Below, one piece after another: positions 2,796 to 22,385 of a stretch of DNA of 35,948 nt. The notes beneath the pieces are model-generated. The model was given only the letters and a program-made list of their open reading frames with translations. It had not been told where the DNA came from and searched no databases. The DNA lies in assembly GCA_016879935.1 (NCBI GenBank), contig JAACJQ010000299.1:1-35948 (forward strand). The letters are read 5' to 3'. A program made the position numbers and the translations under genes. This DNA comes from Archangiaceae bacterium (GTDB taxonomy: Bacteria; Myxococcota; Myxococcia; Myxococcales; Myxococcaceae). Numbering within the stretch: the first letter of the stretch is position 1; every line of letters starts with the position of its first letter.

Positions 2796-2814
2796 CGCGC
2801 TCCCGGCGTTCACG

Positions 2815-4266: not shown

Positions 4267-4988
4267 TGAACACCGTGCTGCTCATCGCCCGCCGAGAGCT
4301 GGGCGCCTACCTGCGCACCATGAGCGGGTACGTCATCATCGCGGTGCTGCTCTTCCTCGACGGCCTCGCCTTCAACGCCTTCGCTGTCGCCGGCACTGCC
4401 AAGAAGTCCTCCGAGGTGCTCGCCGACTTCTTCTTCTGGACCTCGGGCATCGGCATGGCCGGCGCCGTGTTCCTCTCGATGCGCCTCATCGCCGAGGAGC
4501 GTCAGACCGGCACCGTGCAGCTGCTCTACTCGTCGCCCGTGCACGATCGCGAGATCGTCGCCGGCAAGTTCCTCGCGGCGCTCGCGTTCCTCTGTCTCTT
4601 CTACGCGGGCACTGCGTACATGCCGATTCTCGTCGCCGTGTACGGGAAGATCTCCCTGGGCCACGTGCTCTCGGGCTACCTCGGCCTCATCTTCGTCGGA
4701 GCGGCGAGCCTCGCGGTCGGCCTCTTCGGCAGCGCGCTCACCAAGAGCCAGGTCGTCGCGGCCGTCAGCTCGGGCGTCATGTGCGTCGCGCTCACCATGT
4801 GCTGGATCGTCGCGAAGGTCGTCGACCGGCCCTTCACCGAGATCATCACCGGCCTCGCCTGGTTCGGGCACTTCGAGCCGTTCCGTCAGGGCCTCGTGCA
4901 CCTCAAACACTCCGTCTATTTCGGGCTGGTCACCTTCGTCGCGCTCTTCGCCGCCACGCGCGTGCTGGAAGCGCGGAGGTGGAGGTAA
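4266..4988 (+). CDS. ABC-2 permease, GldF-like
   Basis: A 240-residue membrane subunit with six hydrophobic spans. The ATG at 4266 shares its A with the stop of the ATPase gene and has GGAAAGGA upstream, so the open frame that extends further left is not used. It contains MRLIAEERQTGTVQLLYSSPV near residues 75-95, matching the conserved EExxGTxxLLxxxP region between spans 2 and 3 of ABC-2/NosY permeases. The C-terminus RRWR is a short cytoplasmic tail. Two copies should pair with the ATPase in the inner membrane. The substrate is unknown. The next gene begins 3 bases later after a GGAGG ribosome site. Confidence 0.9.
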   Translation: MNTVLLIARRELGAYLRTMSGYVIIAVLLFLDGLAFNAFAVAGTAKKSSEVLADFFFWTSGIGMAGAVFLSMRLIAEERQTGTVQLLYSSPVHDREIVAGKFLAALAFLCLFYAGTAYMPILVAVYGKISLGHVLSGYLGLIFVGAASLAVGLFGSALTKSQVVAAVSSGVMCVALTMCWIVAKVVDRPFTEIITGLAWFGHFEPFRQGLVHLKHSVYFGLVTFVALFAATRVLEARRWR

Positions 4989-4991
4989 GCC

Positions 4992-6836
4992 ATGCTCAAG
5001 AAAAGCTGGATTCTCTCGCTGCTCGTCGGCGCCGGCCTGCTCTCGGTGTGGATCGGCGAGCGCATCGTCGACGGTGACACCCGCACCATCTTCACCGCTG
5101 GCGGCGCGGTGCTCATGGCCCTCGCCATCGGCCTGCGCTTCATGCGCGTGAACGTCGCCAACTCGGGGCAGATCGAAAAGACGCTCCTCGGCCTGCACGG
5201 CCTCACCTTCCTCTCGGTCGGCCTCTACGTCTGGCAGTCGGACCTGTGGGCGAAGGTCGCGGGCCAGACGCTCGAGACCGACTGGCCGAAGCTCGCAGGG
5301 GTCGTCGCCGTCCTCGTCCCCGCCGTGCTGGTGCTCGCGCTCATTCCCACGCTGCTGGTGGAGCTCTCGTACGCCGCGATGGCGAAGGCGCCGGTGATGG
5401 AGATCGGCCGCATTCAAGAGGCCACGAACGCCGGCCTCGGCCTGGGCTTCGTGCTCATCTTCGCGTTCTCGGTGCAGTACGTCGTCACCGAGCGCGACGT
5501 GAAGAAGGACTTCTCGTACTTCCGCGCGGCGCGCCCCGGAGACGCCACCAAGCGCCTCATCAACTCCCTCGACGAGCCGCTCGAGGTCTTCCTCTTCTTC
5601 CCGCCCGCCTCCGACGCGTCAGCGTTCGTGCAGGCGTACTTCGACGAGCTCAAAGAGGGCTCCTCGATGCTGAAGGTGCAGCTGCTCGACCAGGCGCTCG
5701 AGCCCATCAAGTCGAAAGACCTGGGCGTCAGCAACAACGGCTCGGTCGTCATCAAGAAGGGCGCGCGCAAAGAGACGCTCTTCCTCGGCACCGAGGCCGA
5801 GAAGGCCCGCACGCAGCTGCGCGGCCTCGACGTCGAGATTCAGAAGCGCGTGCTGCAGATCGCCAAGAGCAAGCGCACCGTCTACATGACGTCGGGCCAC
5901 GGCGAGCGCACGCAAGACCCCATCGCCAACGAGCAGCGCGCCAACATCGACATTCTCTGGCGCTCCCTGCAGGACCAGAACTTCGAGGTGCGCACGCTCT
6001 CGGCCGCCGAAGGCCTTGGTCAGGATGTGCCCCGTGACGCCGCCGCGGTGTTCGTCATCGGCCCCACGCGCGCCTTCACGCCGCCCGAAGCCCAGGCCCT
6101 GGTGGAGTACGGCAAACGAGGCGGCAAGCTCTTCATCGCACTCGACCCCGAAGCGGGCCCGTCGTTCGAAGAGCTGCTCACGCCGCTGGGCCTCTCGTTC
6201 AAGCCCGAGATTCTCACCGACGACAAGAGCTTCGCCCGCATGCGCGCGCAGGCCAGCCCGTCTGATCGCCGCAACATCGGCACGCGCACTTTCTCGTCGC
6301 ACCCGTCGGTGAACTACCTCTCGCGCTCCCAGCAGCCGGTGCTGCTCGTCGGCTCGGGCGCCATCACCGAGCTGCAGACGCACCCGGCCGATCTCGTCAT
6401 CGACATGGCGCTGCGCTCGCAGTCGACGACGTGGAACGACGTGAACAACAACTTCGAATACGACGCGCCGACCGAGGTGCGTCAGGCCTACGGCGTGCTC
6501 TCGGCCGTCACGCGCCGCGCCGCCAGCAACAAGCTCGAAGACGAGCTGCGCGTGCTGGTGCTGGGAGACTCCGACGGCATCGCCGATGACGTGCTGCCGC
6601 TGCTCCAGGGCAACCAGTACCTCGTCGTCGACGGCCTCAAATGGCTGCTCGGTGAAGAGCAGCTGCAGGGGAACACCAACAGCGAGCTCGACGTGCCGAT
6701 GACGCGCACGCGCAAGGAAGACTCCGTGTGGTTCTACGGCACGACGTTCCTCGCGCCGGTCGCGGTGCTGGCGCTGGGCTTCGTCATGCGGCGGCGCACG
6801 AGCCGGCCGCGCAAGCAGCAGGAGGTGAAGTCGTGA
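4992..6836 (+). CDS. GldG-like ABC auxiliary protein
   Basis: A 614-residue protein with four to five N-terminal membrane spans (roughly residues 5-160), a large domain of the ABC_transp_aux (GldG) type, and a last span near residues 585-605 followed by RRRTSRPRKQ at the cytoplasmic face. The family-like start of the soluble part is DFSYFRAARPGDATKRLINS and EPLEVFLFFP near residues 175-205. Further on come VYMTSGHGER and GGKLFIALDPE, typical of the domain. The extra N-terminal spans make it longer than a minimal GldG. It probably sits in the inner membrane with the permease and faces the periplasm. The stop overlaps the next start (GTGA), supporting one transcript and coupled translation. Confidence 0.88.
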   Translation: MLKKSWILSLLVGAGLLSVWIGERIVDGDTRTIFTAGGAVLMALAIGLRFMRVNVANSGQIEKTLLGLHGLTFLSVGLYVWQSDLWAKVAGQTLETDWPKLAGVVAVLVPAVLVLALIPTLLVELSYAAMAKAPVMEIGRIQEATNAGLGLGFVLIFAFSVQYVVTERDVKKDFSYFRAARPGDATKRLINSLDEPLEVFLFFPPASDASAFVQAYFDELKEGSSMLKVQLLDQALEPIKSKDLGVSNNGSVVIKKGARKETLFLGTEAEKARTQLRGLDVEIQKRVLQIAKSKRTVYMTSGHGERTQDPIANEQRANIDILWRSLQDQNFEVRTLSAAEGLGQDVPRDAAAVFVIGPTRAFTPPEAQALVEYGKRGGKLFIALDPEAGPSFEELLTPLGLSFKPEILTDDKSFARMRAQASPSDRRNIGTRTFSSHPSVNYLSRSQQPVLLVGSGAITELQTHPADLVIDMALRSQSTTWNDVNNNFEYDAPTEVRQAYGVLSAVTRRAASNKLEDELRVLVLGDSDGIADDVLPLLQGNQYLVVDGLKWLLGEEQLQGNTNSELDVPMTRTRKEDSVWFYGTTFLAPVAVLALGFVMRRRTSRPRKQQEVKS

Positions 6837-7909
6837 AGGCCCGAAGCGTCGCGATGACGGGAGCGCTGGCGGGGCTGGGTCTGCTCGCCGCGTACACCAC
6901 GTGGCAGCGCCCGAAAGAGACGGCGGCGGCCTCGACGAACGTGAAGGTGCTCGACGCCAGCAAGCAGTCGCTGGAGTCGGTGAAGTACGAAGACGGCCAG
7001 CGCTTCCTCTCGCTCAAACGCGTCGAAGGTGAGCTCTGGGTCACCTCGGGGTGGATTCCCGGCAAGGAGCCCGCGCCGCCCGACGCCGGCGTGACGACGA
7101 CGTTCGTTCCCGCCGACGGTGGGCTCGATGCCGATGGTGGCGTCATCGACGCGGGCTTCATCGAGGTGTCGAGGAAGGCGCCGAAGGTGGCTCCCACGCG
7201 CGAGGTGAAAGCGAACGAGCGTGCCGAGACGGCGCTGCAGAAGTTCATGCCGTTCGAGGCGACGCGGGCGCTGGGCTCGCTGACCGACGAGAAGCTCGCC
7301 GAGCTGGGCCTCACGGGAACCGATCGCAAGCTCGAGCTGATGGTCGCGAGCACCGCGCGCGTGTTCAAGGTGGCGAAGACGCTGCCCGGCATCTTCGGCA
7401 CGTACATTCAGGAAGAGCGCACGGGTGAGGTGTACCTGCTGCCCGGCTCGCTGCTGTCGGACTTCGACCCGCAGTCGCAGGTGCTCGTCGACCGCCGCCT
7501 GCACGTCTTCAAGCAGAGCGAGTTCGACGCCTTCACCGTGAAGTCAGAGGGCAAAGAAGCCTCGTTCGTGCAGACGAACGCCGAGATTCCCACGACGGCG
7601 AAGGTCGCGCGCGCGGCCACTCCGGACAAACCCGACGAGCTCGTGAAGAACTGGCACGACAAGGTCTGGGGCCGCCTCATCGTCACCGAGGTGCTGGGCA
7701 AGGGTGAGCTGCCGAACGGCAAGGAGCCGACCGTCGCGCTGCGCCTCGACTATTCGCAGAAGGGCAAGGCGAAGGGGTTCCTCGAGCTGGCCATCGGCGA
7801 CGGCGTGTCGATGTGGGCGCGCACCGAGAACACGGCCTCGTGGGTGTCGGTGCACCAGGGAAGTGACGAGCTGCTCATCGAAGCGAAGAAGCTGGTGCTC
7901 GAGCAGTAA
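6833..7909 (+). CDS. DUF4340 domain protein
   Basis: A 358-residue protein starting at GTG 6833. This start is chosen over the longer open frame because it overlaps the upstream stop (GTGA) and has a perfect AGGAGGTGA at 6820-6828. It has one N-terminal membrane anchor (AMTGALAGLGLLAAYTTW, residues 7-24) and then a mostly periplasmic domain. DUF4340 features are seen in LESVKYEDGQRFLSLKR near residue 45 and in the AEIGLTG-like text LAELGLTGTDRKLELMV near residues 155-170. A Pro/Asp/Gly-rich insert (about 80-115) separates the two parts. DUF4340 proteins commonly accompany GldAFG-type transporters, so it is probably the fourth subunit. Its biochemical role is unknown. Confidence 0.88.
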   Translation: MKARSVAMTGALAGLGLLAAYTTWQRPKETAAASTNVKVLDASKQSLESVKYEDGQRFLSLKRVEGELWVTSGWIPGKEPAPPDAGVTTTFVPADGGLDADGGVIDAGFIEVSRKAPKVAPTREVKANERAETALQKFMPFEATRALGSLTDEKLAELGLTGTDRKLELMVASTARVFKVAKTLPGIFGTYIQEERTGEVYLLPGSLLSDFDPQSQVLVDRRLHVFKQSEFDAFTVKSEGKEASFVQTNAEIPTTAKVARAATPDKPDELVKNWHDKVWGRLIVTEVLGKGELPNGKEPTVALRLDYSQKGKAKGFLELAIGDGVSMWARTENTASWVSVHQGSDELLIEAKKLVLEQ

Positions 7910-7920
7910 CGACGAAGCGC

Positions 7921-9564
7921 ATGTCCCTCGACCAGGCGAAGCGGGCGCTCGAGTCGGGAAAGCTGAGCGAAGGTGTCGTCGCGCTGCTCGAGGCGTGGCG
8001 GGCGGTGCCTGCCCCTCGTATCGCCGACGTGCTCGACGGGCTGTCGAAGCGCAGCCCTCGCGGCCCGATTCAGGGAAAGAACCAGGCCGAGCTGACGCGC
8101 GCGTTTCTGGAGCGTGTGGCCGAGAAGAACCCGCTCGACCCGCCGCGCCTCGCGGAGGTCATCGGCACCACGCGTTCGCAGCAGATGGTGGAGCAGCTCG
8201 AGGCCCTGCTCGACTGGCCAGCGGACCCGCGTTGGACGACGCCGTTCCTCCGGCTGCTCACGAATCCTCCGTTCACCGGCTCGGGCACCCAGTCGGCGTG
8301 GCGACGACTGTTCAAGCTGCTGCAGCAGACGGCGGACCCTCGCCTGCTCGAGCGGCTCCCCGCCCTCGACTTCGCGGCGCTGCTGGTGAGACCAGGCCAG
8401 GCGAACGTGGAGGCCTTCGCAGCCGAGTTCTTCACCGAGCGGAGAGATGCGGTGCTCGCGGCGGTGCGCAAGAAGCACAAGGCAGGTGCTCCACGAATCG
8501 GAGCAGCCGACGAAGCGACGCTGGCCGCCATCGAACGCCTCGTGGCGACCGACACCGTGACGCAGCTCGAGGCACAGGTCTTCGCGGCGCCCCAGTCGGA
8601 GGCACCCGCGGTGCTCACGGACTACCTGCTCGAGAAGGGGGACGAGCGCGGCGAGTTCATGGCGCTGCAGCAGCAACGGCTCGTGGGCCGCCTCAGCGAA
8701 GAGCAGGAAGCACGTGAAGAGGCGCTGCTCGAGAAGCACGCGACGACGTGGCTCGGCGCGCTGGCGACGGTGGTGGAGCCGACGACGGTTCGGTTCGAGC
8801 GCGGCTTCCCCGCGGCGTGCGAGCTCACGACGGGCCAACCGGCGCTGCTCGCTTCGGTGGCGAATGACCCGGCCTGGGCCACCGTGCGTCACCTGCATCT
8901 GCATAGCGACGTGCCGCAGACGCTCCTGCGATCTCCGGCGCTCAAGCAGCTCGAGGCCGTGACGCTCATTCGGGAGGCGGCTGCACGCGCGATGTTGAAC
9001 GCGCCCGAGGCGTGGCCGTGGCGGCAGGTGGCGCTCGATCTGCCGTCGTACCAGTCGCGGAGCGCAGACGTGGCGCTGCTGCAGCGCAGGCTGACCGCCA
9101 CGTTCCCCAACCTCACCTCACTCGCGCTCGACGGCTATCAGAATGCGGACGACGCGTTCGACTGGGTGACGAGTTTGCCGGTGATGGCGCAGCTGCGGTG
9201 GTTTGGCGTGAACTTCACCCACAGCTCGAGGCTCGCGGCGACGCTCGACCGGCTGCTGAAGCGCGTGCCGCCCACCGTGGACCTCGACCTGAGCTTTTGC
9301 TGCCACCAGGGCTACCGGTTCAGGCTGCACCGCTCGACGGAGCGGCGAGTGCTCGAGCTCGCGGGGCGCGGGTACCAGGGCACGACGAGCGTGCCGAACG
9401 ACGTGCTCCTCGAAGCGGCGGCGCCACTCGCTGGAACGCTCCATGAAGTCTGCTTCACCTCGCGCGCGACGAAGGCCCACCGCGCGAAGGCCGAGGCGCT
9501 GCTCGCGAGCGGCGGCGTGGTTCGGGTATCGAAGGAAGGCGCTCGGGTGCCGCTGCCAGACTGA
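7921..9564 (+). CDS. TIGR02996 repeat-companion protein
   Basis: A 547-residue, apparently cytoplasmic protein 11 bases after the transporter operon. Residues about 220-270 hold the TIGR02996 (myxobacterial repeat-companion) signature: TDYLLEKGDERGEFMALQQQ followed by REEALLEKHATTWLGAL and a PTTVRFERGFPAACEL strand. This module is typically found before leucine-rich-like repeats, and the rest of the protein has irregular units such as VRHLHLHSD, LEAVTLIREA, LTSLALDGY and LRWFGVNF that fit such repeats. The N-terminal 200 residues are helical and not recognised. No enzyme motif is present. A protein-interaction role is likely, but no partner can be named. The lack of a strong ribosome site leaves the exact start uncertain. 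Confidence 0.8.
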   Translation: MSLDQAKRALESGKLSEGVVALLEAWRAVPAPRIADVLDGLSKRSPRGPIQGKNQAELTRAFLERVAEKNPLDPPRLAEVIGTTRSQQMVEQLEALLDWPADPRWTTPFLRLLTNPPFTGSGTQSAWRRLFKLLQQTADPRLLERLPALDFAALLVRPGQANVEAFAAEFFTERRDAVLAAVRKKHKAGAPRIGAADEATLAAIERLVATDTVTQLEAQVFAAPQSEAPAVLTDYLLEKGDERGEFMALQQQRLVGRLSEEQEAREEALLEKHATTWLGALATVVEPTTVRFERGFPAACELTTGQPALLASVANDPAWATVRHLHLHSDVPQTLLRSPALKQLEAVTLIREAAARAMLNAPEAWPWRQVALDLPSYQSRSADVALLQRRLTATFPNLTSLALDGYQNADDAFDWVTSLPVMAQLRWFGVNFTHSSRLAATLDRLLKRVPPTVDLDLSFCCHQGYRFRLHRSTERRVLELAGRGYQGTTSVPNDVLLEAAAPLAGTLHEVCFTSRATKAHRAKAEALLASGGVVRVSKEGARVPLPD

Positions 9565-9577: not shown

Positions 9578-10684
9578 TCAGTACTCGCACCACCTCGCGC
9601 AGAAGTCGCTCACCTGCCTTCGATTCTGCAAGGCGCGGCAGGCGCTGGGCGAACACCGGCCCTCGACGCAGCCGTGAAACGGCGGACAGTCGCTGTTCTC
9701 GTTGCATCCGCAACGGCCCGAGACGCCGAGCTCGGGGCCGCAGCCCAGGGGGTAGGTCGCGTCGTTGCACAGGAACGAGCCCGTGCAGGCCACGCCGCAG
9801 CCGCCGCAGTTGCCGCGGCTGTAGGAAATGTCGACGCACGAACCACCACAACAGCGTTCAGACTCGACGGTTGCTCCCGTGCATTGGGTGCCATCGCTCT
9901 TCGACTTGTACTGGCATTGGCCCGTCGACCGATTGCAGGTGCCGTTCGGGTCGTCGCAGCGGCCTGGCGACGGGTTGCGACACGACTTCGTGGTGCCGAC
10001 GCACCGGCCGTCGGTCGAGCACCGATCGCCCGTGGTGCATGGGTTGTCGTCTGAACACGCGCCGCCGACGTTCACCGCCGCGTAGACACAGCCACGCGAG
10101 GGGTCGCAGGTGGCGGTGGCGGCCATGCATTCCGGCTCGGAAGGCGCTCCACAGACGACCGGCGCACCGCCAACACACGCACGTTGCGAACACCGTTTTC
10201 CGGTGATGCAGGCGTTGCCGTCGGAACACAGCCCCGCTTCGCAATCAGGGTCTGCGCAGTCGATCAGGCCATCGGTGTCGTTGTCGGCACGGTCTGCACA
10301 GTCGCCCTCGGTGGTCGCAGGCACCTTGATCTGAACCAGCGTCTCGCCGCTCGCCTCCTTCGCACCGCTCTTCCACACGGCGGTGATGGTGGCTGACTTC
10401 CCGCTCAGGCAGCGTTCGTCTTCGGTCGCCGCGCAGGTGAAGTCGACGAAGGCGGAGCCGAACGAATCGAGTTGAACGGTGACAGGCGTACGAAGACTCC
10501 CGTGTGAGGACACGACCGTCACCGAGCCGGTGCCGACGTTGTCTTCGGGCGTTCGCGCACGAATCTCGATCTCCGAGCTCGTACCCAAGACGCTGACCGT
10601 CCCTGGTGTTGGAATGAGATCGAGCGTTCCGGCTGGACCGCTGCACCCCATCACCCCAACAAAAACAATGCTGAGCCCTCGCAT
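9578..10684 (-). CDS. Cys-rich lipoprotein with Ca-binding-like motif
   Basis: A 368-residue predicted lipoprotein. The ATG at 10684 is chosen because it gives a short signal peptide ending in the lipobox VMGC (Cys14) and has GGGGGAG just upstream; twelve more codons are open before it. Residues about 20-130 look like one Ig-like beta domain (TVSVLGTSSEIEIRA, SFGSAFVDFTC). Then comes DNDTDGLIDCADPDC, a DxDxDG-type motif common in myxobacterial surface proteins, and a Cys-rich region with pieces such as CSDDNPCTTGDRCSTDGRC and CGGCGVACTG. It is probably anchored at the cell surface or in the outer membrane. It is convergent with the TIGR02996 gene, 13 bases away. It lies 48 bases after the kinase gene on the same strand, so it could be transcribed with that operon. 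Confidence 0.8.
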   Translation of the reverse strand: MRGLSIVFVGVMGCSGPAGTLDLIPTPGTVSVLGTSSEIEIRARTPEDNVGTGSVTVVSSHGSLRTPVTVQLDSFGSAFVDFTCAATEDERCLSGKSATITAVWKSGAKEASGETLVQIKVPATTEGDCADRADNDTDGLIDCADPDCEAGLCSDGNACITGKRCSQRACVGGAPVVCGAPSEPECMAATATCDPSRGCVYAAVNVGGACSDDNPCTTGDRCSTDGRCVGTTKSCRNPSPGRCDDPNGTCNRSTGQCQYKSKSDGTQCTGATVESERCCGGSCVDISYSRGNCGGCGVACTGSFLCNDATYPLGCGPELGVSGRCGCNENSDCPPFHGCVEGRCSPSACRALQNRRQVSDFCARWCEY

Positions 10685-10732: not shown

Positions 10733-12505
10733 TCAGCTCTTCTTCACGGGCAGCCGCATGATGAACGTCGCGCCCTGCCCGACGGTGGATTCGGCGGTGA
10801 GCGTGCCGCGGTGGGCCTCGATGATGCTGCGCGACACCGAGAGCCCGAGGCCCGTGCCGAGCCCGCGCCGTTTGGTGGTGAAGAACGGCTTGAACAGGTT
10901 CTGCATCACCTCGGGAGGAATGCCCGGGCCCGTGTCCGAGACGAGCACCTTCACGAAGTCGCCGTCGGCCGCCGTCGCCACCGTCACCCGCTTCGTCGGT
11001 GACTCGGCCATCGCCTGGCCCGCGTTCATCATCAGGTTGAGGAGCACCTGCCGCAGCTGGTTGTTGTTGCCGAGAATGCCACCGAGCCCGTCTCCGAACG
11101 CGGTCTCGACCTTCACGCCCTGCATCTGCAGCTGATGCCGGCACAGCGTCAGCGCGCCCTGGAGCACCTCGTTCACGACGAGCGGCTCCATCTCCATCTC
11201 GGGCGGCCGTGCGAACTCGAGCAGGTTCTGCAGAATCTTGTTCGCGCGCTGCGTGTCCGACTCGATGAGGCCGAAGTACTCCTTCGCTTCGACCATGGTG
11301 TCTGCCTCTTTGCCGAGCTGTGCGAAGCCGAGGATGCCCACCATCGGGTTCTTCACCTCGTGCGCGACACTGGCAGCGAGCTCTCCGACGGCCGACAGCT
11401 TCTCGGACTGCACGAGGTTGTTGTGCGCGCGCTGCAGGTCGTCGCTGCGCCGAATCAACTCGCGGCTCATCTCGTTGAGCGCCGTGCCGACCGACCGAAT
11501 CTCGGGCGCCCCTTCGACGGGTACTTCGACGCCGTACTCGCCCTTCGAGATGACGGCCATGGTGTCACTGAGCCGACGCAGCGGCGCGGTGAGCGCACGT
11601 GAGAGGAAGACGGCCAGCACGAGCGCGAGCGCCACGATGCCTGCCGCGAACAAGAAGGAGCGACTCGACAACTCACGGGTCGCCCCGAACACCTCGGCGA
11701 CCGGCACCTCGGCCACGACGGCCGCGAGCCCCTGCCCCACGCGCGCATAGCTGGCCAGGCGCTGCTCGCCTTCGCCGTCGTACTGCTCGGCCCCGCGCGC
11801 CGCCTTGCCGCTGAGCGCGCTCTTCACCGGCGTCAGCCCCGAGAAGTCTTCGTGCGCGATGACCTTCGAGGCATCACGATGCGCGAGCACACGGCCGATG
11901 GCGTCGACGAGGAACACCCGCGTCACGCTGCCGGTGTTGACGGTGCGCAGCAGCCGCTCGGGCCGAAGATCGGCGGTGATGATGGCCTTGCCGTCGGCGG
12001 TGACGACCGAGAGGCGCAGCAGCGCGAGGTCGGGCGCGAGGCTGGCGTTCTGCAGCAACACTCCCGACTTCCGCACCACGTCGAACGGCACCGGGGTCTG
12101 TTTGCGCGCCAGCAGAATGTCTTCACGCTCGATGTTCAACGTCGAGAGGCGGTCGGCGTCGACGAAGAGAAAGGCGCGCTCGACACCGGCCTCCGAGACG
12201 GTGTCGACCTCGAGCGAGAGCACTTCGTCATCGGCCGAGAACAACGACTTCGCGCGGCGCTCGGCGTCACCCGGCGTGCTGGCGTACTCCTGACCGAAGT
12301 AGCGCAGCTTGTCGGTGAAGCCATCGACGGTGGTCTCGACCTGGTCGGCCACGGCGCCAGCGACGAGCGCGTTGACGTCATAGACGGTCGCCTCTTTGTC
12401 TCGCGTGACGATGCGGGTCGCGAGTGTGAGGTAGAGCGCCATCGCCGCCGTCAGCAGCAGGCTGATGAGCAGCACCACCTGGGCGCGAATCGACAGTCGA
12501 GTCAT
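10733..12505 (-). CDS. Membrane sensor histidine kinase (Cache-HAMP-HisKA-HATPase)
   Basis: A 590-residue kinase. Spans at residues about 8-28 and 283-303 bracket a 250-residue periplasmic sensor region. It fits a double-Cache fold; FLVDAIGRVLAHRDA (198-212) is typical of the distal Cache repeat. HAMP follows (about 301-352), then the dimerisation domain with phosphoacceptor His382 in ASVAHEVKNPM. The catalytic domain has an N-box around Asn490-Asn494, G1 DTGPGIP (524-530) and G2 GLGTGLGLS (548-556). All residues needed for phosphotransfer are present. It has no attached receiver. The start codon directly abuts the stop of the Fn3-like gene, making it the last gene of a five-gene operon with two stand-alone receivers, its probable partners. 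The ligand is unknown; extracytoplasmic proteins of the same operon are candidates for signal delivery. Confidence 0.93.
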   Translation of the reverse strand: MTRLSIRAQVVLLISLLLTAAMALYLTLATRIVTRDKEATVYDVNALVAGAVADQVETTVDGFTDKLRYFGQEYASTPGDAERRAKSLFSADDEVLSLEVDTVSEAGVERAFLFVDADRLSTLNIEREDILLARKQTPVPFDVVRKSGVLLQNASLAPDLALLRLSVVTADGKAIITADLRPERLLRTVNTGSVTRVFLVDAIGRVLAHRDASKVIAHEDFSGLTPVKSALSGKAARGAEQYDGEGEQRLASYARVGQGLAAVVAEVPVAEVFGATRELSSRSFLFAAGIVALALVLAVFLSRALTAPLRRLSDTMAVISKGEYGVEVPVEGAPEIRSVGTALNEMSRELIRRSDDLQRAHNNLVQSEKLSAVGELAASVAHEVKNPMVGILGFAQLGKEADTMVEAKEYFGLIESDTQRANKILQNLLEFARPPEMEMEPLVVNEVLQGALTLCRHQLQMQGVKVETAFGDGLGGILGNNNQLRQVLLNLMMNAGQAMAESPTKRVTVATAADGDFVKVLVSDTGPGIPPEVMQNLFKPFFTTKRRGLGTGLGLSVSRSIIEAHRGTLTAESTVGQGATFIMRLPVKKS

Positions 12506-14617
12506 TCAGGGACCTCCCAGCTCGAACGAATACCCCACCCGCAACCCCAGCCCGCTCGTCGAGACCTTCGCGAGCTGCCCATCGAGAGTTCCGAACAGCC
12601 CCGAGAGCTCGACCTCGAGGTGCCCTGGGCCCAGCTTGCGGCCGATGGCGAAGGCGAGCTCGAGGTCGCCGACGACGCGGGTCTCACGCGCGTTGCCGAC
12701 GGTGAGCAGCGCGAGCTGGAACGCAGGGCCGATGCCACCGTGCAGCACGAAGGCGCCGACAGGCTGGTGCCAGCCGACGAGCACGCTGAAGGGGAACACC
12801 CAGGCTCGGGCCTCGATCTGCTCAGGGCCGAAGTCGACCGAGCGCGACGCGGTGTAGACGCCCGCGCGCGCCTCGACGCCGAGCCGCCGCGACAAGACCG
12901 GGAGCCGAACGGTGAGCCCGAGCGTGGCAGTTGGAGAGGTCACCGACGAGAAGTTGAACAGGCCGCCGGCACGCGCCGCGATCGAGACGACGGGCGGGAG
13001 CGGACGGAAGAGGTCGAGCTCGGTGGTGAACTCGCGCTCTTCGATGCGCAGCACGTCTTCGCCATCACCCGGCGGAGACCACTTCGCCGAGAAGAAGCCA
13101 TCGTGGGGAACGGGCGCGTCGATGAGGCCCTTCTGCACTGACAGGCGCGGCGCGATGTCCATCACGGGCCTGCCCTTGCCGTCTCGCATCACCAGCCGAA
13201 CCTCGTCACCGACGAGCGTGACCTCGGCGCGCGCGACGGGCGGAACGCCGACGAAGATCTCCCTCGGCTCGGTCCACGACGAGACCCGGCTCGCGTTGCC
13301 CTTCGCGCGAATTCGAACGCTGTGCGCGCCTTCGGAGAGGTCGTTCAGCGTCTTGGGCGCCGACGGCACCTGCAGAATCTGCCCATCGACCTCGAGCTCG
13401 TAGAACACGGCCTTGTCGACGCGGCTCCACGCCACCTCGACGGGCTCACCCGGCTTCACGACGACGTCCTGCTCGGGCGCAATCCAGATGACGTTGGCGA
13501 GCGGGTCGGGGGCGACGACGTCGACGGCTCTGGGCTCGCTGAAGAGCGAGGTGTGGCTCTTGTCGTCACGGGCCTGCACGCGCCACCAGACCTTGCCGGG
13601 GGGCACGTCGGTCGCGCGGAACTGCGAGGCGTTGACGACGCCCGACGAGACGACGGTCTTGAAGTCACGCTCGGTGGCGATCTCCACGCGGTACTGCGAG
13701 GCCCCGACGACGGGTGTCCACGCGAGGTCGAGCTTGAGCGGCGTCGAAGAATCTCCGCGGGGCACTGGCGTCGCGAGGCGAACCTTGAAGACGCTCTCCT
13801 GGCTCCAGTCGCCGGGTGTGCCGCGCTCGTCGATGGCCGCGACGCGCCAGCGGTACTCACCCGCGGCGTTCGGCTTGAACGCGAGCGTCGTCGTGGTCGA
13901 GGTGAGCGAGACCTTCTCTTTCGTGTCGGTCGACGCCTCGAGCACCCAGGAGGCAGCGCAGGCGACCTCGCTCCACGCGAGCGTGACGGTGGGCGTACCG
14001 AGAATCACGTCGCCTGCGGCCTTCACCTTCGGAGCGCCCGGCCGAATCGTGAAGCGCCGCACGCCGGTCGACTCGCCCGTTCGCCCGCGCACGTCGACGG
14101 CCTTGGCGCGCCAGTACCAGGTGCCGGCCGAGACCTGCCCCAGCGAGACGCTCGGCGACTTCGAGGCGAGCTGACGGGCGGGCGCGAAGTCTTTCGACTG
14201 CGAGACCTCGACGACGAACTCGGTGATGAGTGGGGAGGCCTCGAACGAGAGCTCGACCGGCTGCGCGCAGGGCAGCAGCGCCTCGTCGAGCGGCAGCTTC
14301 GGAACGGGCACGGTCGACTCGAGCGCGACGGTGCGGGGCTGACTCCACTCGCTCGCGCGGCCTTCGGCGTCGAAGCTGCGCACCCGCCACCAGTGCGTCA
14401 CCGAGGGCAATTGCTCCCAGCGATAGGCAGGAGTCGGCACGCGCGTCTGCAGCACCACCTCGACGAACGCGGCGTCTTTGGCGATCTGCAGCTCGTAGCC
14501 CTTCGCGCCGGGCACGTCTTTCCACCGCAGCACGATGCGGGCGCTCTGGGCGAAGCCCATCAATGGCGTGAGGAGCAACAGCCCCACCACGGCGAGCCGG
14601 CGCGCGTCACTTCCCAC
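12506..14617 (-). CDS. Fn3-like repeat protein with C-terminal beta-barrel
   Basis: A 703-residue exported protein starting at GTG 14617, which overlaps the end of the FecR gene by 11 bases. A signal peptide (about residues 1-23, ending GFAQ) is followed by at least five fibronectin-III-like units. Each has an opening W (WKDVPGAKGYELQIA, LAWSEVACAASWVLEA, LAWTPVVGASQYRVEIA, VAWSRVDKAVFYELEV) and a closing WWRV or YRWRV strand. The last 160 residues alternate polar and hydrophobic residues in short strands and end GLGLRVGYSFELGGP, as in small outer-membrane barrels. I infer a barrel in the outer membrane with a periplasmic or surface Fn3 stalk. The same unit type occurs in the FecR-domain protein encoded just upstream, suggesting the two proteins touch or diverged from a shared module. 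Confidence 0.78.
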   Translation of the reverse strand: MGSDARRLAVVGLLLLTPLMGFAQSARIVLRWKDVPGAKGYELQIAKDAAFVEVVLQTRVPTPAYRWEQLPSVTHWWRVRSFDAEGRASEWSQPRTVALESTVPVPKLPLDEALLPCAQPVELSFEASPLITEFVVEVSQSKDFAPARQLASKSPSVSLGQVSAGTWYWRAKAVDVRGRTGESTGVRRFTIRPGAPKVKAAGDVILGTPTVTLAWSEVACAASWVLEASTDTKEKVSLTSTTTTLAFKPNAAGEYRWRVAAIDERGTPGDWSQESVFKVRLATPVPRGDSSTPLKLDLAWTPVVGASQYRVEIATERDFKTVVSSGVVNASQFRATDVPPGKVWWRVQARDDKSHTSLFSEPRAVDVVAPDPLANVIWIAPEQDVVVKPGEPVEVAWSRVDKAVFYELEVDGQILQVPSAPKTLNDLSEGAHSVRIRAKGNASRVSSWTEPREIFVGVPPVARAEVTLVGDEVRLVMRDGKGRPVMDIAPRLSVQKGLIDAPVPHDGFFSAKWSPPGDGEDVLRIEEREFTTELDLFRPLPPVVSIAARAGGLFNFSSVTSPTATLGLTVRLPVLSRRLGVEARAGVYTASRSVDFGPEQIEARAWVFPFSVLVGWHQPVGAFVLHGGIGPAFQLALLTVGNARETRVVGDLELAFAIGRKLGPGHLEVELSGLFGTLDGQLAKVSTSGLGLRVGYSFELGGP

Positions 14618-15827
14618 GGGCGGGCGTCACCTCGATCTCGGGGTTGAGCAGCTCGGGCGCTTCGGGAATCGCCTTGTGAATGATGCGAAAACGCGACGCT
14701 TCGGAGGGCAAGGCTTCACCGAGCGCGTCGTCGGCCGCACGCACGCGCCAGAACCAGCTGCCTTCGGCGAGCGACGAGACGAGCTTCACCTGCGTACCCG
14801 AGACCGTCTCGGAGACGGCGAGCGGCTCGAAGCTCTGCGAGGCGCTGACCTCGAGCAGGTAGCGCCCCACGCCGGGCAGCGGCGTCCACGCGTACTCGAG
14901 GCGGGTGCCGGGCGGAGCGAGCACGACCTCACCGGGCCGTGGCATGCGGTTGGCGGGCGACAGGTCCTCCACGAGCGAGAAGCGGCGCGCCTCCGAGAGC
15001 GGAACACCAGCCGAGTCGACGATGCGCCACCACGTCACGCCACCAGAAGGCGACGAGAGCTCTTTCTGCGAGCCGTCGACGGGAAGGTCGCTCGAGAGGA
15101 ACGCGAAGAGCCGATCTCGGGCGATCTGCAGCCGGGCGCCTTTGGGAGCCTCGCTCCAGCTGAGCGTCACGGTCGGCGGCGCGCCGTGGAACAGCTGGCG
15201 GTGCTGCGCTTCGGGCGCGAGGAGCGTCACCGGCCACGACGGCAAGAGCACCATCTCGTCCATCACCCGCGCGCGCGCCCCTGCGTCGACCCCCGTCGTC
15301 CTGCCCTTCGCCGAGACCTGCGCCGTGCCCTTCGTCACGTTGACGTCGAGCTGGCCCTTCGAGACGTCGACACGCGCAGACGCAGCAGGCGGCAGAGTGG
15401 CGGTGCCATCTTTCGTCGCGAGGGTGAGCGGCACCTGGCCTGCGACGCCGGCGATGGAGCCCTGCCGCAGCGTCACCGAGCGGCCCTGCCCGCGCTGCGG
15501 CTCGATGACGACGAGGCTGCGCTCATCGAGCTCGAGCACGGTGCCATCGAGGAACTCGACGCGCGCTTCGCTGCCGGGCGGCACGTAGACGGCGTCAGAC
15601 TCGTGCACGTCGTCACCGCGCGTGGCGGTCCCCCAGCCCAGCGTCTCGGCGGGCCGAACCTGCAGCGCTCCGACGGCGAGCTGAATGTGGCCGGCGACGG
15701 TGTTGGTGGTGCGCAGGTGGGGCGGCGTCGGCTTGAGCGCGGCCGTGAGCGACACGACCGCGATGAGCGCACCGACTCCAGCCACCACGACGTCACGGTA
15801 CGAGCGCGTCTCGGCCACGGTCGTCAC
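14607..15827 (-). CDS. FecR-domain membrane-anchored protein
   Basis: A 406-residue protein with one N-terminal anchor (VVVAGVGALIAVVSLTAAL, about residues 13-31) and the rest in the periplasm. The FecR domain spans about residues 40-165, with the family pattern of a glycine-rich strand ladder: GWGTATRGDDVHESDAVYV, then SEARVEFLDGTVLELDE, then VTLRQGSIAG. Two Fn3-like units follow, each ending in WWRI or WFWRVRA. In iron-siderophore systems FecR passes a signal to an anti-sigma or sigma factor. Here there is no sigma factor and no TonB receptor, but there are two receivers and a kinase, so the domain is likely used as a periplasmic binding module. The start overlaps the stop of the upstream receiver gene by 4 bases. 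Confidence 0.85.
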   Translation of the reverse strand: MTTVAETRSYRDVVVAGVGALIAVVSLTAALKPTPPHLRTTNTVAGHIQLAVGALQVRPAETLGWGTATRGDDVHESDAVYVPPGSEARVEFLDGTVLELDERSLVVIEPQRGQGRSVTLRQGSIAGVAGQVPLTLATKDGTATLPPAASARVDVSKGQLDVNVTKGTAQVSAKGRTTGVDAGARARVMDEMVLLPSWPVTLLAPEAQHRQLFHGAPPTVTLSWSEAPKGARLQIARDRLFAFLSSDLPVDGSQKELSSPSGGVTWWRIVDSAGVPLSEARRFSLVEDLSPANRMPRPGEVVLAPPGTRLEYAWTPLPGVGRYLLEVSASQSFEPLAVSETVSGTQVKLVSSLAEGSWFWRVRAADDALGEALPSEASRFRIIHKAIPEAPELLNPEIEVTPARGK

Positions 15828-16270
15828 TCACGCTTCCGCCGCAGCGGGGCGATCTCGGCGACGACCTGCGTGAGGGTCTCGCGCAGCGTGTCGACGGCCG
15901 AGGGCTGCTCGACGCTGGCGATGGCCATGGCAACGGCCTCTTCGATGGCCTGCAACGACTTGAACGGTTTTCCGAGAGTCACCTCGGGGCGCTCTTCGCC
16001 GAACGAGAACGGCTCGGGGTGACCGGTGATGAGCACGACGGGGAGCGTGGGCTGGCGACGACGCGCCTCGATCATCACCTCGCCGCCGTGCATGCCGGGG
16101 AGCATCTTGTCGACGACGAGACAATCGACGGGGCCGGTGTCGAGCAGCGAGAGCGCGGCTTCACCCGACTGCGCCGTGAGCACCTCGTAGCCGGCGCGAG
16201 TCAGGGTACGCGCCACCAGCACGCAGACCTCGGCCTCGTCATCGACGACGAGCACGCGACGCGACGTCAC
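15824..16270 (-). CDS. Stand-alone receiver (response regulator)
   Basis: A 148-residue single-domain receiver. The acidic pocket is VVDDEAE (Asp10, Asp11), the phosphoacceptor is Asp54 in LVVDKMLPGMHG, and the switch residues Thr82 and Lys101 are present (ITGHPEP, GKPF). The usual stretch between beta-4 and beta-5 is replaced by FSFGEERPEVTL, shorter than normal. A 35-residue C-terminal helix without any output domain follows. It should relay phosphate or act by protein contact. It overlaps both neighbours by 4 bases (ATGA type), so its expression is tied to the first receiver and to the FecR-domain gene. Confidence 0.9.
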   Translation of the reverse strand: MTSRRVLVVDDEAEVCVLVARTLTRAGYEVLTAQSGEAALSLLDTGPVDCLVVDKMLPGMHGGEVMIEARRRQPTLPVVLITGHPEPFSFGEERPEVTLGKPFKSLQAIEEAVAMAIASVEQPSAVDTLRETLTQVVAEIAPLRRKRE

Positions 16271-16671
16271 GCAGCGGCTCCACGCGACGCCCGAATGGCC
16301 GCTTCGCAGATGTCGAGAATGTCGTGAACGCCGAAGGGCTTCGTCACGTACGCATGCACGCCGAGGTCGTTCGCCGCCAGCTGCGTCTCGGGCGTGGGAA
16401 AGCCAGTGATGAGCAGCGCGCGCAAGTTGGGCCGCACCGAGCGGGCCTGCTTGAGCACCTCGAGGCCGTCGATGCCGGGCAGGTTCTTGTCGGTGACGAG
16501 CAGGTCGAATGGCTCGGCCTTCAGGCGAACCAGACCTTCTTCGGCGGTGTCGACGAGCGAGACGCTGTGGCCGGCGCGGGTCAACACACGCTCGAGCAGC
16601 ATGCGGGCCGAGCGGTCGTCGTCGATGACGAGAATTCGACCGGGGACCTTCGGAGCTACCGGGGCGCTCAT
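16267..16671 (-). CDS. Stand-alone receiver, first gene of sensory operon
   Basis: A 134-residue receiver with Asp17-19 (VIDDDR), phosphoacceptor Asp61 (LVTDKNLPGIDG), Thr90 and Lys112 (TKPFG), all in normal positions. It has no output domain. It differs from the second receiver but shares the rare DKxLPG around the phosphoacceptor, which suggests duplication. As the first gene of the operon, its promoter should lie in the 82 bases shared with the divergent DNA glycosylase gene. No Shine-Dalgarno sequence is seen ahead of the ATG, so a leaderless or weakly translated message is possible. Confidence 0.9.
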   Translation of the reverse strand: MSAPVAPKVPGRILVIDDDRSARMLLERVLTRAGHSVSLVDTAEEGLVRLKAEPFDLLVTDKNLPGIDGLEVLKQARSVRPNLRALLITGFPTPETQLAANDLGVHAYVTKPFGVHDILDICEAAIRASRGAAA

Positions 16672-18812: not shown

Positions 18813-18820
18813 GGTGTGCG

Positions 18821-18853
18821 CCCGGGTCGCACCCTGTCGAACGCGAGCCCGGG
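18821..18853 (+). terminator. GC-rich hairpin after permease gene
   Basis: CCCGGGTCG (18821-18829) pairs with CGA-G-CCCGGG (18844-18853) with one bulged G. A smaller CACAC/GTGTG stem lies over the stop codon just before. No T-run follows, so intrinsic termination is uncertain, as is common in high-GC genomes. Confidence 0.4.
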
Positions 18854-18861
18854 AAAGACGT

Positions 18862-18877
18862 GTGACACACTCGTCAC
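18862..18877 (+). promoter_or_regulatory. 16-bp palindrome GTGAC-N6-GTCAC
   Basis: GTGAC (18862-18866) and GTCAC (18873-18877) form a perfect inverted repeat with a 6-base centre, 22 bases before the ATG of the giant lipoprotein gene. Size and spacing fit a dimeric regulator site. It resembles but does not match the CRP consensus TGTGA-N6-TCACA. Confidence 0.3.
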
Positions 18878-18899
18878 GTTCGATCTCTGGAGTCGCCCC

Positions 18900-21800
18900 A
18901 TGAACCGCCTGCTTCTTTCTGTCACGCTGATGGCCGTGTCTGGCTGCGTGTGCGTCGACCCTTCGAAGGTGAGCACGTTCAAGTGTGGCGACGGCGACGC
19001 GTGCGGCGAAGGTCTGCAGTGCTGTGACGGCGTCTGTCGAACCAGCTGTACCGCGAGTGGAGGCGGCGGCAGTGCGACAGGAGGAGGCTCGGCCTCGGCC
19101 GGGGGCGCGACGATGGGCGGTGGCGCGGCGACCGGCGGCGGAAACGTCGCGGGAGGGCGCGCGGGTGGCTCGGCGGGCTGTCAAGACAACCAACCTTGTA
19201 CAGGAAATACCGGAGCCCCCTGCCGCACTGGCGTGACGTATTGCCAGAACGGCATGGCGTCGTGCATCGATGGGCCCGCCTCCGCAGCAGGCGTGAGCTG
19301 CGGAAACAACCTCGTCTGTCGTGGCGGGCTCTGCGTGACGTGCACGCCGGGAACGCCCTGCTCCACCAACAGCGATCAATGCGTCGAGGGTGAAACGGTG
19401 TGCGGCGCGGCCTCGTCGTGCGCCAACTCGACACGGCAGCGCCCTGCTGGCTCGTCGTGCGGAACCGGGCAGGTCTGCACGAGCACGGGTACCTGCATCA
19501 CGTGTGACGAAGGCGCGACGTGTTCTGGCAATCCCAGCTCGCCCTGCGTGCAGGGCGTCGTGCGCTGTAGCTCGGGTGCGGCGAGCTGCGTCGATGGACC
19601 GGCAGCACCGACGGGCATCGCCTGCGGCGTCGACCGGGTCTGCGTCGGCGGAAACTGTCTGCAGTGCCAGGCGAACGCGGCGTGCACGTCGAACCCGGGA
19701 GCGCCGTGCCGCCGCGGCCTCACCACCTGTGGCGCGACGCCCGGGTGCATCGATGGAACGAACGCTCCGGCGGGCAGCTCGTGCGGAAGCAATCAGGTCT
19801 GCAGCACGACCGGCACCTGCGTCGCGTGCACCGCGGGAGCGTCGTGCACCGCGAACCCCGGCTCGGCGTGCCGACGCGGCGTCGTCGACTGCTCGAGCGG
19901 CGCTCCAGTGTGTGTCGACGACGTCCTGAAGCCGGCGGGCACGGCGTGCGGTACCAATCAGGTCTGCACCGCCACCGGAATGTGCGTGGCGTGTACGGCG
20001 GGTGGGGCGTGCACCACCAACCCGGGCTCGGCGTGCCGACAGGGCGTCTTCTCGTGCGCGACGGGAGCGCAGGCGTGCGTCGATGGCGCTCCGAAGGCTG
20101 CGGGCACCAACTGCGGCGCGGGGCAGGTCTGCGACGCGAACGGCTTCTGCGGCATGTGCACTGCCGGCAATGCCTGTACATCGAACCCCGGCGCGCCCTG
20201 CAAGAGTGGCGTCATCGATTGCAGCACTGGCGCGACCCGATGTGTCGACTCCACGAACGTCACGCCTGGAACCTCGTGCGGCCCCGACCAGGTCTGCAAC
20301 GCGAGCGGCAGCTGCGTCGCGTGTGTGGCATCAACCGCGTGCACGACCAACCCGAACCCCGGCTGCAAGACGGGCCTCACGTCGTGTACGACCGGCGCAC
20401 AGACCTGTGTCGACTCGGGCAACCGGGCGGCGGGCACCTCGTGCGGAACGAACCAGGTCTGCAACGCCACCGGCGCGTGTGTGAGCTGTTCGGCCAACGT
20501 CGCCTGCACGATGAACCCCAACCCAGGCTGCCGCAACGGCATCACCGAGTGCAGCACCGGCGCACAACGGTGCGTCGATGGCAGCAACAAGGCCCCGGGA
20601 ACGAACTGTGGCTCTGGCCAGGTGTGTGACTCGAACGGCAACTGCGGGGCGTGCGTGGCGAACCAGCCGTGCTCGTCGAACCCCAGCGCGCCGTGCAAGA
20701 CGGGCCGAACCGATTGCTCGACGGGCAGCACGGTCTGCATGGACTCGACGAACGCGGCTGCAGGGCTTTCGTGCGGCGCCGGTCAGGTCTGCAACGGAAC
20801 AGGTGCCTGCATTGCGTGCAGTGCTGGCAACAGCTGCGGCACCAATACTGGCGTGTGCAAGAATGGAGTCACGGACTGTTCGACGGGGGCGCTGCGGTGC
20901 ATCGATGGTGGAAACAAGACGCCGGGAACGAGCTGTGGTTCTGGGCAGGTCTGCGACCCGACCGGAGCGTGTACCAACTGTGCCGCCGGCAGTTCGTGCA
21001 CACCGCCCAACCCGTGCCTCAACGGATCCATCGCATGTACGACCGGTCTGCCGGTGTGCACCAATGGTGCGCGCAAGGGCAACGGCGCGACGTGTGGCGT
21101 GAATCAGGTCTGCAACTCCCTGGACCAGTGCGTGGCCTGCACGCAGGGCGCCTCGTGCACGACGAACCCCGGTTCTGCCTGCAGGAATGGAACGGTCGAG
21201 TGCAGCAGCGGTACGCCCACCTGCGTCGATGGCACCAGCAAGGCCAACGGCACGGTCTGCGCGGGCGGCGTGTGCAACGCGGGCTCATGCAACGCGTGCA
21301 GCGACGGCGCGGCGTGTACGACCAACCCGAACAGCGCCTGCCGCAACGGCACCATCAGCTGCGCGTCTGGCAGCGCGGTGTGTGTCGATGGCAGTAACAA
21401 AGCGAACGGAACGACGTGCCCGACGGGCGTCTGCAACGCAGGCACGTGCGCCGCCTGCAGCGCAGGAGGGTCGTGCACGACGAACCCGAACTCGGCCTGC
21501 CGCAACGGAACGATCAACTGCGCGACTGGCAGTCCGGTGTGCGTCGATGGCAGCAACAAGGGCAACGGCACGGCGTGCCCGGGTGGCGTGTGTAGCGGTG
21601 GGTTCTGCAGCGCGTGCTCAGCCGGAAGCGGGTGCACCTCGAACCCGAGTGCCGCGTGCAAGAACGGCGTCATCGACTGCAGCACCGGCAGTGCGGTCTG
21701 CGTCGACGGCAGCAACAAGGGAAACGGCACCGCGTGCCTCGGCGGCGTGTGCAACGCGGGCGCCTGTAATCCCTGCAATGCCGGAGCCGGGTGCACGACC

Positions 21801-22385
21801 AACTCGAACCAGGCCTGTCAGAATGGCAGCATTGATTGCAGCTCGGGAAGTGCAGTCTGCGCGAATGGCGCGAACAAGATGAACGGCACGGCGTGTCCCG
21901 GCGGTGTGTGCAACGCAGGGTCGTGCAACCCCTGCAGCGCGGGAGCGAGTTGCAGCCCGGCGAACCCGTGCAAGACGGGGAGTATTGACTGCAACTCCGG
22001 CGCTGGCGTGTGCAACGAATCAGGCAACGTCGGCGATGGAACCTCGTGTCCTGGTGGTTCGTGTATTGGCGGCTCGTGTGTCGCCTGCAGTCCCGGTGGC
22101 ACCTGCGTAGGCAATGCAAACCCCTGCAAGGCCGGCGCCATTTCATGCGCGACAGGGAGCCCTGTTTGCGTAGATGGGGCCAATGTCGCCGACCTCTCCG
22201 CCTGCCCTGGCGGACGCTGTACGTCGGGAGCGTGTTGCACTGGCTGCATCAGAACCGGGGTGTGCTATTCTGGCTCAGCGCTGACAACATGTGGCACCGA
22301 TGGAAATAATTGCGTCAGATGCCCATTCGGATTTGACTGCAACTTTGGAGTCTGCGAGCAGGTTTGCAACCCAATCTGCAACTGA
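18900..22385 (+). CDS. Giant lipoprotein of 19 eight-cysteine repeats
   Basis: A 1161-residue lipoprotein. ATG 18900 is chosen because GGAG (18889-18892) lies 7 bases upstream and the product begins with a signal peptide ending in the lipobox VSGC (Cys16). A Cys-rich head (CGDGDACGEGLQCCDGVC) and a Gly/Ser/Ala linker (about residues 52-93) follow. Residues 94-1114 are 19 tandem repeats of about 54 residues. Most have eight cysteines in the order C-x5-C-x7-C-x6-C-x6-C-x11-C, then x5-C-x5-C in repeats 1-12 or x4-C-x4-C in repeats 13-19. A non-repeat Cys tail ends in CNPICN. The even cysteine count suggests disulfide-stapled modules forming a long fibre on the cell surface. I do not recognise a named family. 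Candidate roles are adhesion, matrix or predation. Its last about 140 bases are lower in GC than the repeats. Confidence 0.9.
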   Translation: MNRLLLSVTLMAVSGCVCVDPSKVSTFKCGDGDACGEGLQCCDGVCRTSCTASGGGGSATGGGSASAGGATMGGGAATGGGNVAGGRAGGSAGCQDNQPCTGNTGAPCRTGVTYCQNGMASCIDGPASAAGVSCGNNLVCRGGLCVTCTPGTPCSTNSDQCVEGETVCGAASSCANSTRQRPAGSSCGTGQVCTSTGTCITCDEGATCSGNPSSPCVQGVVRCSSGAASCVDGPAAPTGIACGVDRVCVGGNCLQCQANAACTSNPGAPCRRGLTTCGATPGCIDGTNAPAGSSCGSNQVCSTTGTCVACTAGASCTANPGSACRRGVVDCSSGAPVCVDDVLKPAGTACGTNQVCTATGMCVACTAGGACTTNPGSACRQGVFSCATGAQACVDGAPKAAGTNCGAGQVCDANGFCGMCTAGNACTSNPGAPCKSGVIDCSTGATRCVDSTNVTPGTSCGPDQVCNASGSCVACVASTACTTNPNPGCKTGLTSCTTGAQTCVDSGNRAAGTSCGTNQVCNATGACVSCSANVACTMNPNPGCRNGITECSTGAQRCVDGSNKAPGTNCGSGQVCDSNGNCGACVANQPCSSNPSAPCKTGRTDCSTGSTVCMDSTNAAAGLSCGAGQVCNGTGACIACSAGNSCGTNTGVCKNGVTDCSTGALRCIDGGNKTPGTSCGSGQVCDPTGACTNCAAGSSCTPPNPCLNGSIACTTGLPVCTNGARKGNGATCGVNQVCNSLDQCVACTQGASCTTNPGSACRNGTVECSSGTPTCVDGTSKANGTVCAGGVCNAGSCNACSDGAACTTNPNSACRNGTISCASGSAVCVDGSNKANGTTCPTGVCNAGTCAACSAGGSCTTNPNSACRNGTINCATGSPVCVDGSNKGNGTACPGGVCSGGFCSACSAGSGCTSNPSAACKNGVIDCSTGSAVCVDGSNKGNGTACLGGVCNAGACNPCNAGAGCTTNSNQACQNGSIDCSSGSAVCANGANKMNGTACPGGVCNAGSCNPCSAGASCSPANPCKTGSIDCNSGAGVCNESGNVGDGTSCPGGSCIGGSCVACSPGGTCVGNANPCKAGAISCATGSPVCVDGANVADLSACPGGRCTSGACCTGCIRTGVCYSGSALTTCGTDGNNCVRCPFGFDCNFGVCEQVCNPICN
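19179..22241 (+). repeat. 19 tandem coding repeats of about 161 bp
   Basis: Each unit starts at the first Cys of the pattern C-x5-C-x7-C and runs to two residues after the eighth Cys. Units 13-17 are the most alike (for example CRNGT, VDGSNK and GVCNAG recur), suggesting recent amplification at the 3' side. Units 2, 4, 11, 12, 18 and 19 carry small length changes in the second or third spacing. Confidence 0.9.

Follow-up and report, generated by a model that had tools for sequence, protein, structure and literature searches.

Five consecutive genes of an Archangiaceae bacterium place a FecR-domain protein next to a sensor histidine kinase and two receivers. The locus lies in the window, the stretch of 35,948 nucleotides that was analysed as a whole, and it raises the question of how a FecR protein could serve signalling when no sigma factor or TonB receptor stands beside it.

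Operon layout and the two-component proteins

The five ORFs encode, in order, two receivers (REC1 and REC2), the FecR protein, a Fn3-barrel protein (Fn3B) and a Cache-HAMP kinase (HK), and all were confirmed on the minus strand (Table 1). The junctions in the window are overlaps of 4 bp, 4 bp and 11 bp followed by one of 0 bp, where the genes abut, in agreement with the original prediction of overlapping or abutting genes on one strand. The further proposal that the five genes belong together is supported by their conserved order, their overlaps and their co-occurrence in relatives.

Table 1. Positions of the operon genes, their predicted domains and the fused ORFs of other lineages (window positions unless a locus is named).
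Feature	Positions	Strand	Description and basis
REC1	16267-16671	-	134 aa stand-alone receiver; Pfam Response_reg 80 bits
REC2	15824-16270	-	148 aa stand-alone receiver; Pfam Response_reg 66 bits
FecR protein	14607-15827	-	406 aa: short cytoplasmic N-terminus, one transmembrane segment (TM), FecR core, two Fn3-like domains, C-terminal tail; Pfam, alignment, models
FecR TM	15735-15791	-	residues 13-31; hydropathy
FecR core	15234-15605	-	residues about 75-198; VIA fold match to PupR and BDI_1681 anti-sigma regulator domains
FecR Fn3-like domains (two)	14676-15233	-	residues about 199-384; BLAST cross-matches to Fn3B, model
FecR C-terminal tail	14610-14675	-	HKAIPEAPELLNPEIEVTPARGK; predicted donor strand EIEVT; near-invariant in orthologues
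Fn3B	12506-14617	-	703 aa: signal peptide, Fn3-like array, Ig-like domain, predicted 8-strand barrel; AlphaFold2, VIA
Fn3B first Fn3	14318-14545	-	residues about 25-100; starts at strand B, without own A strand
Fn3B OmpA-like barrel	12509-12997	-	residues 541-703; C-terminal, 8 predicted transmembrane strands
HK	10733-12505	-	590 aa: TM 10-28, Cache-like periplasmic domain, TM 284-302, HAMP, HisKA (H382), HATPase_c; Pfam, alignment
Putative Cys-rich lipoprotein	9578-10684	-	48 bp downstream of HK; variable neighbour, probably outside the core
Fused ORF, L148	2436-5927
Fused ORF, L149	7042-10254
Fused ORF, L150	6820-9834
Fused ORF, L151	122-2920
Partial fused ORF, L213	1-2307		kinase also present
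Partial fused ORF, L218	3672-5309		kinase also present

Response_reg is the sole Pfam family in both receivers, which are output-less, with neither GGDEF nor EAL. The residues for phosphorylation are present in REC1 (acidic D17-19, the phospho-acceptor D61 in a DKNLP motif, T89 and K111) and in REC2 (D10/D11, D54, T82 and K101). REC1 is about 90% identical within the genus, and alignment showed that REC2 is shortened before beta-5 and carries a C-terminal extension. The Pfam matches of the kinase are HAMP, HisKA and HATPase_c, of which HisKA and HATPase_c lie over the cut-off, together with a sub-threshold dCache_1. Its catalytic residues are the phospho-acceptor H382, the N490 box, DTGPG at 524 and GTGLGL at 550, and aligned orthologues are 52-89% identical. 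As read from the sequences, the kinase and the receivers carry the residue set that marks a two-component system (His, ATP boxes, acidic pocket, Asp, Thr/Ser and Lys).

The putative Cys-rich lipoprotein gene that follows the kinase was considered as a sixth core member and rejected, as it is not kept downstream of HK in the orthologous loci examined; its product has no Pfam match. A protein weakly similar to it (27%) is encoded between Fn3B and the kinase in one relative (G014, L024 647-1486), possibly through shared Cys-rich repeats alone. The window also encodes a 1189-aa protein of many Cys-rich repeats of the CxxGxxCTxNPxxxCxxG type (18816-22385) and a 547-aa ORF without a Pfam match (7921-9564), to which a 302-aa ORF elsewhere in the genome is weakly similar (L068 12267-13175).

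The FecR protein and the Fn3-barrel protein

The third protein matches Pfam FecR with 27.8 bits (cut-off 24), and its core folds like PupR and BDI_1681 (VIA Z 17.1-17.2, r.m.s.d. 1.8-2.0 Å, 120-123 residues); comparison with the PupR cell-surface signalling domain 6ovk gave a Z of 17.1 and 2.0 Å over 123 residues. Only about 12 residues precede the transmembrane segment, leaving no space for a sigma-binding domain. Pfam searches found no sigma-binding or STN family in the operon proteins, and no sigma factor or TonB receptor among the five ORFs. The earlier reading of this FecR as one standing apart from both is borne out in the operon. The Fn3-like units that had been noticed in both the FecR protein and Fn3B are shared in sequence as well as in fold.

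Fn3B has an Ig/Fn3-like Pfam match, and a sequence search of solved structures returned Fn3-type or marginal matches alone. The AlphaFold2 model, built from 14 orthologues with a mean pLDDT of 85, shows an N-terminal signal peptide, an array of beta-sandwiches and eight long C-terminal strands at 543-701. Structural comparison with VIA-align placed residues 541-701 on the OmpA barrel (Z 17.4-18.6 in the best four rows, r.m.s.d. 2.3-2.5 Å); for OmpA 1qjp the predicted barrel gave a Z of 17.4 and 2.3 Å over 132 residues. Fibronectin type III arrays matched residues 100-372; for fibronectin Fn7B8 the aligned part was 101-371 (Z 16.1, 3.0 Å over 258 residues). Fn3B is predicted to end in an OmpA-type eight-strand barrel, so that the outer-membrane barrel originally proposed for its C-terminus stands as a structure prediction. 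The fold is that of the OmpA transmembrane domain (Z about 18) at about 10% identity; unlike in OmpA, the barrel is C-terminal, after the Fn3s, and the OmpA peptidoglycan-binding domain was not found in Fn3B with Pfam. A profile search with the Ig-like model of MtxA gave a marginal match to Fn3B (E 0.027).

The fold of the FecR core, shared with anti-sigma regulators, would suit a degenerate FecI-FecR-FecA system with its sigma factor encoded at another place in the genome and the kinase adjacent by chance. However, the short cytoplasmic N-terminus, the Pfam results and a barrel of 8 strands, not 22, speak against it, as does the presence of the kinase as a neighbour in lineage after lineage, and we regard this explanation as very improbable. 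Sigma-factor signalling of the FecIRA kind was accordingly rejected as the identity of the operon: sigma factor, sigma-binding region, STN domain and TonB receptor are all missing from it.

The FecR tail, the first Fn3 of Fn3B and the fused forms

Alignment of FecR orthologues showed that their C-termini read HKxIPxAPELLNPEIEVTP with very little variation. The motif APELLNPEIEV is present in all 24 FecR proteins of the system that were examined, whereas none of 18 distinct FecR-Fn3 paralogues without a Fn3-barrel partner has it. The tail resembles the linker and first strand that lie ahead of strand B in the repeats of FecR and Fn3B. Mature Fn3B begins directly at strand B (SARIVLRW), and in all 13 split orthologues tested the match between the first Fn3 and the Fn3 profile does not begin until about HMM position 20 of 95. 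One genome (G163) has a tail-bearing FecR without an adjacent Fn3B; a Fn3-barrel protein of 602 aa, likewise beginning at strand B, is encoded elsewhere in it.

The contact was modelled with residues 67-405 of the window FecR and 3-290 of Fn3B as one chain, joined by an artificial frame step that serves purely as a tether. Alignments A6, A7 and A8 were rejected for the complex model, the FecR and Fn3B rows being misaligned onto each other's Fn3 domains; in alignment A9 the placement of the rows was checked before use. In the tethered model EIEVT is a strand, strand B extends over 25-32 instead of 28-31, and the confidence of the first Fn3 rises in comparison with Fn3B alone; the pTM is 0.40, and only two sequences covered the FecR Fn3s and the tail. 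Residues 321-435 of the model, which comprise the tail and the first Fn3 with the signal-peptide tether skipped, align as one Fn3 to residues 652-739 of 5g56 (86 residues, 2.1 Å, Z 11.3). Scored against the profile as an A strand, the real tail, which is short for such a test, gave no significant gain: shuffled tails did equally well. The C-terminal strand of FecR is predicted by the model to supply the missing A strand of the first Fn3 of Fn3B.

FecR, the Fn3s and the barrel form one ORF of 932-1163 aa in four loci from other classes of the phylum (L148, L149, L150 and L151), and two partial fused ORFs were also found. A kinase of the same kind directly follows the fused ORF in L148, with a 4 bp overlap, and in L149; in L150 a kinase is found some 2 kb further downstream, where the contig ends, and L151 ends ahead of any kinase. 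A conserved, short hydrophobic segment that contains Trp and has AHA or AYA at its end separates the tail from the first Fn3 in all six fused ORFs (for example WLYWVIGSVAYA and LLWRLVGGVAHA). By sequence the segment resembles an internal signal-peptidase site, for which the topology after a periplasmic FecR part would be odd. It was rejected as an ordinary transmembrane segment, being short and, in L151, weakly hydrophobic. An internal translation start was likewise rejected as the explanation of the fused ORFs, since no plausible start codon lies near the segment in L149 and L151, although L148 and L150 have a Met there.

Since FecR and Fn3B are one ORF in several lineages, the tail is kept only with the partner and the tethered model places the tail in the first Fn3, the two proteins very likely touch each other. 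The manner of the contact could be different: FecR may be the regulator of the sensor without any shared strand, and Fn3B a separate outer-membrane receptor that uses a different surface to touch FecR, in the manner of STN domains in cell-surface signalling. Co-occurrence and fusion give association and not a binding mode, and a tail of this length is too short to match the profile significantly. The outer-membrane partner in FoxR/FoxA binds the FecR-family protein by beta-sheet extension, and binding in both FoxR/FoxA and PupR/PupB relies on a sheet formed between folded STN domains (PMC11637429). However, the absence of the tail from FecR-Fn3 proteins without the partner, the consistent lack of an A strand in mature Fn3B and the filling of the A-strand site in the tethered model all argue against another surface, which we consider quite unlikely. 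As a tentative proposal, donor-strand complementation may operate here: the inner-membrane FecR would complete the first Fn3 of the outer-membrane Fn3B, so that one beta-sandwich chain joins both membranes and reports to a histidine kinase, and other lineages would synthesise both parts as a single polyprotein, with a signal-peptide-like segment inside it.

Distribution, proposed signalling route and output

The search for the gene order in other Myxococcota, as had been suggested, identified 11 genomes from 4 genera in which a single contig carries all five genes in this order (G000, G001, G003, G005, G006, G018, G021, G023, G089, G091 and G092). Fn3B identity in these genomes is 44-78%, and the gene spacing is similarly tight in relatives. 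The locus is cut by contig ends in G004, G024 and G090; G014 and G015 have REC1 only, and G007 has REC2 only. The stable part is a three-gene core of FecR, Fn3-barrel protein and HK. A search of 60 relatives with Fn3B gave orthologues of 67-78% identity in the genus and 34-50% in other genera of the family, and no orthologue in several large genera of the family that were searched. The named records with an Fn3B orthologue are MAGs labelled Archangium, Myxococcaceae, Myxococcus or Myxococcales; the carriers are a group of mostly uncultured myxobacteria. Among 195 Myxococcota genomes, HK orthologues (E up to 1e-130) are present in 26 and FecR orthologues (E up to 1e-50) in 25, with both in 23 (Fisher p 1.6e-24, ignoring phylogeny). 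Within the family the locus keeps its neighbours, which is vertical inheritance. In other classes of the phylum the core is again present, with other genes on its flanks, and the persistence of the module amid different flanks is stronger evidence than conservation within the family. Given this recurrence and that in the 11 genomes, chance does not account for the order. Gene order, domain content, tail conservation and natural fusion are results of sequence analysis or computation.

Two loci in the same surroundings are free of FecR and Fn3B. G010 (L215 5644-8344) keeps REC-REC-HK, and G002 (L221 5959-7535) keeps one REC and a shortened kinase without the Cache part. From these loci the FecR/barrel part appears to be an add-on to a two-component core and not its obligatory input. 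The relay from barrel and Fn3 through FecR to the kinase, as first proposed, therefore holds in part: the FecR-Fn3B contact is favoured by the fusions, the partner-specific tail and the tethered model, whereas the step from FecR to the Cache domain of the kinase is hypothetical. The bridge is either an input module added to the two-component core or one that can be lost. The same two loci, and the kinase's own Cache-like domain, would fit an ordinary self-sufficient two-component system; FecR and Fn3B would then be structural partners under shared regulation, as an envelope tether or a surface protein, that send no signal to the kinase, and the operon would serve joint expression only. We hold this to be unlikely, given that FecR adjoins this kinase across classes with different flanks, often with overlaps of a few bases and even in a minimal set (L217), and that the co-occurrence of HK and FecR is nearly complete. 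A second such kinase was seen in L212 (G163:C52, about 2327-8810) near an 881-aa protein that resembles another barrel-ending outer-membrane protein, with a FecR match between them; this arrangement suggests that the barrel partner can vary.

The preferred reading, which we regard as moderately probable, is that the kinase and receivers form a two-component system to which a trans-envelope sensor is added as an accessory: a barrel-Fn3-FecR-TM bridge would be read by the Cache-HAMP kinase. Fn3B would sit in the outer membrane by its OmpA-like barrel, with the Fn3/Ig array extending into the periplasm, and FecR would be anchored in the inner membrane by its single TM, with the core and the two Fn3 domains periplasmic. 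Insertion of the EIEVT strand of the FecR tail as the A strand of the first Fn3 would make the bridge continuous. The state of the bridge (an outer-membrane ligand, tension, spacing or loss of the partner) would be read by the neighbouring kinase, which would phosphorylate REC1 and REC2; having no output domains, both receivers must act by protein contact. We infer the passage of the signal from the bridge to the kinase, the phosphotransfer and the output. Signal crossing from the outer membrane to an inner-membrane kinase is known for few systems, and the system of the window would couple a histidine kinase to the outer-membrane half of FecR cell-surface signalling. The proposed contact is defined and easily tested, as it comprises a tail of roughly 15 residues and one Fn3 domain, and the natural split and fused forms permit direct tests.

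Comparison with known systems showed both likenesses and differences. The Burkholderia BiofilmReg operon encodes a CreB-type response regulator, a LysM-FecR periplasmic protein, a CHASE2 kinase and a DUF4136 protein (PMC5192318). As in the window, its FecR-domain gene lies between the response regulator and the kinase, with no sigma factor. However, the window has a TM-anchored FecR with Fn3s, an OmpA-like barrel protein, a Cache-HAMP kinase and two output-less receivers, and LysM, CHASE2 and DNA-binding regulator domains are absent from the Pfam matches of its operon; the published description of BiofilmReg, with its LysM-FecR, DNA-binding regulator and CHASE2 kinase, includes no barrel protein. 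FecIRA-type signalling (FecR, PupR/PupB, FoxR/FoxA; PMC11637429, PMC9249621) similarly pairs an outer-membrane barrel protein with a single-TM protein that has a FecR core, but there the system has an ECF sigma factor, a sigma-binding N-terminus, an STN domain and a TonB receptor, and here the cytoplasmic partner is a histidine kinase. The CHASE2 adenylate cyclase clusters of Campylobacterota (PMC9239204) are likewise conserved and link a FecR-domain protein to a non-sigma signalling enzyme; they comprise a FecR-domain outer-membrane protein, an adenylate cyclase, a phosphodiesterase and a TPR protein in place of the kinase, receivers and Fn3-barrel protein. The mtxA cluster of magnetotactic bacteria (PMC4439547) likewise has a Fn3-like protein in an operon with signalling genes, but that Fn3-like/TPR protein lies beside a CHASE2 cyclase, with no kinase or barrel described. 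A FecR gene between a regulator and a kinase is already known; the Fn3-barrel partner and the predicted donor strand were not found described in the open-access papers searched. The combination of FecR and Fn3B with a kinase and receivers points to a route for signals across the bacterial envelope that has not been described before.

The DKN[LM]P motif is common to REC1 and most receivers linked to the module in distant relatives. REC-(PAS)-GGDEF(-EAL) regulators adjoin the module in L149, L150, L151, L152, L156 and L217; in L217, a REC-GGDEF protein, a FecR without Fn3 or barrel and the kinase form the minimal set, with overlapping genes, and in L149 and L151 a tandem-receiver protein directly precedes FecR. 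No c-di-GMP gene (GGDEF or EAL) is present at the window locus, such outputs being confined to the distant relatives. Because the linked receivers there carry GGDEF/EAL, the ancestral output was probably c-di-GMP, and these regulators point to a testable output. G006 encodes a REC-PAS-GGDEF-EAL protein (L191 5584-7650), unlinked to its FecR locus, that is 45% identical to one beside the fused module of G192. In G084 (L155 9416-10401), the strand opposite FecR encodes a REC protein and, after it, a KaiC-like ATPase.
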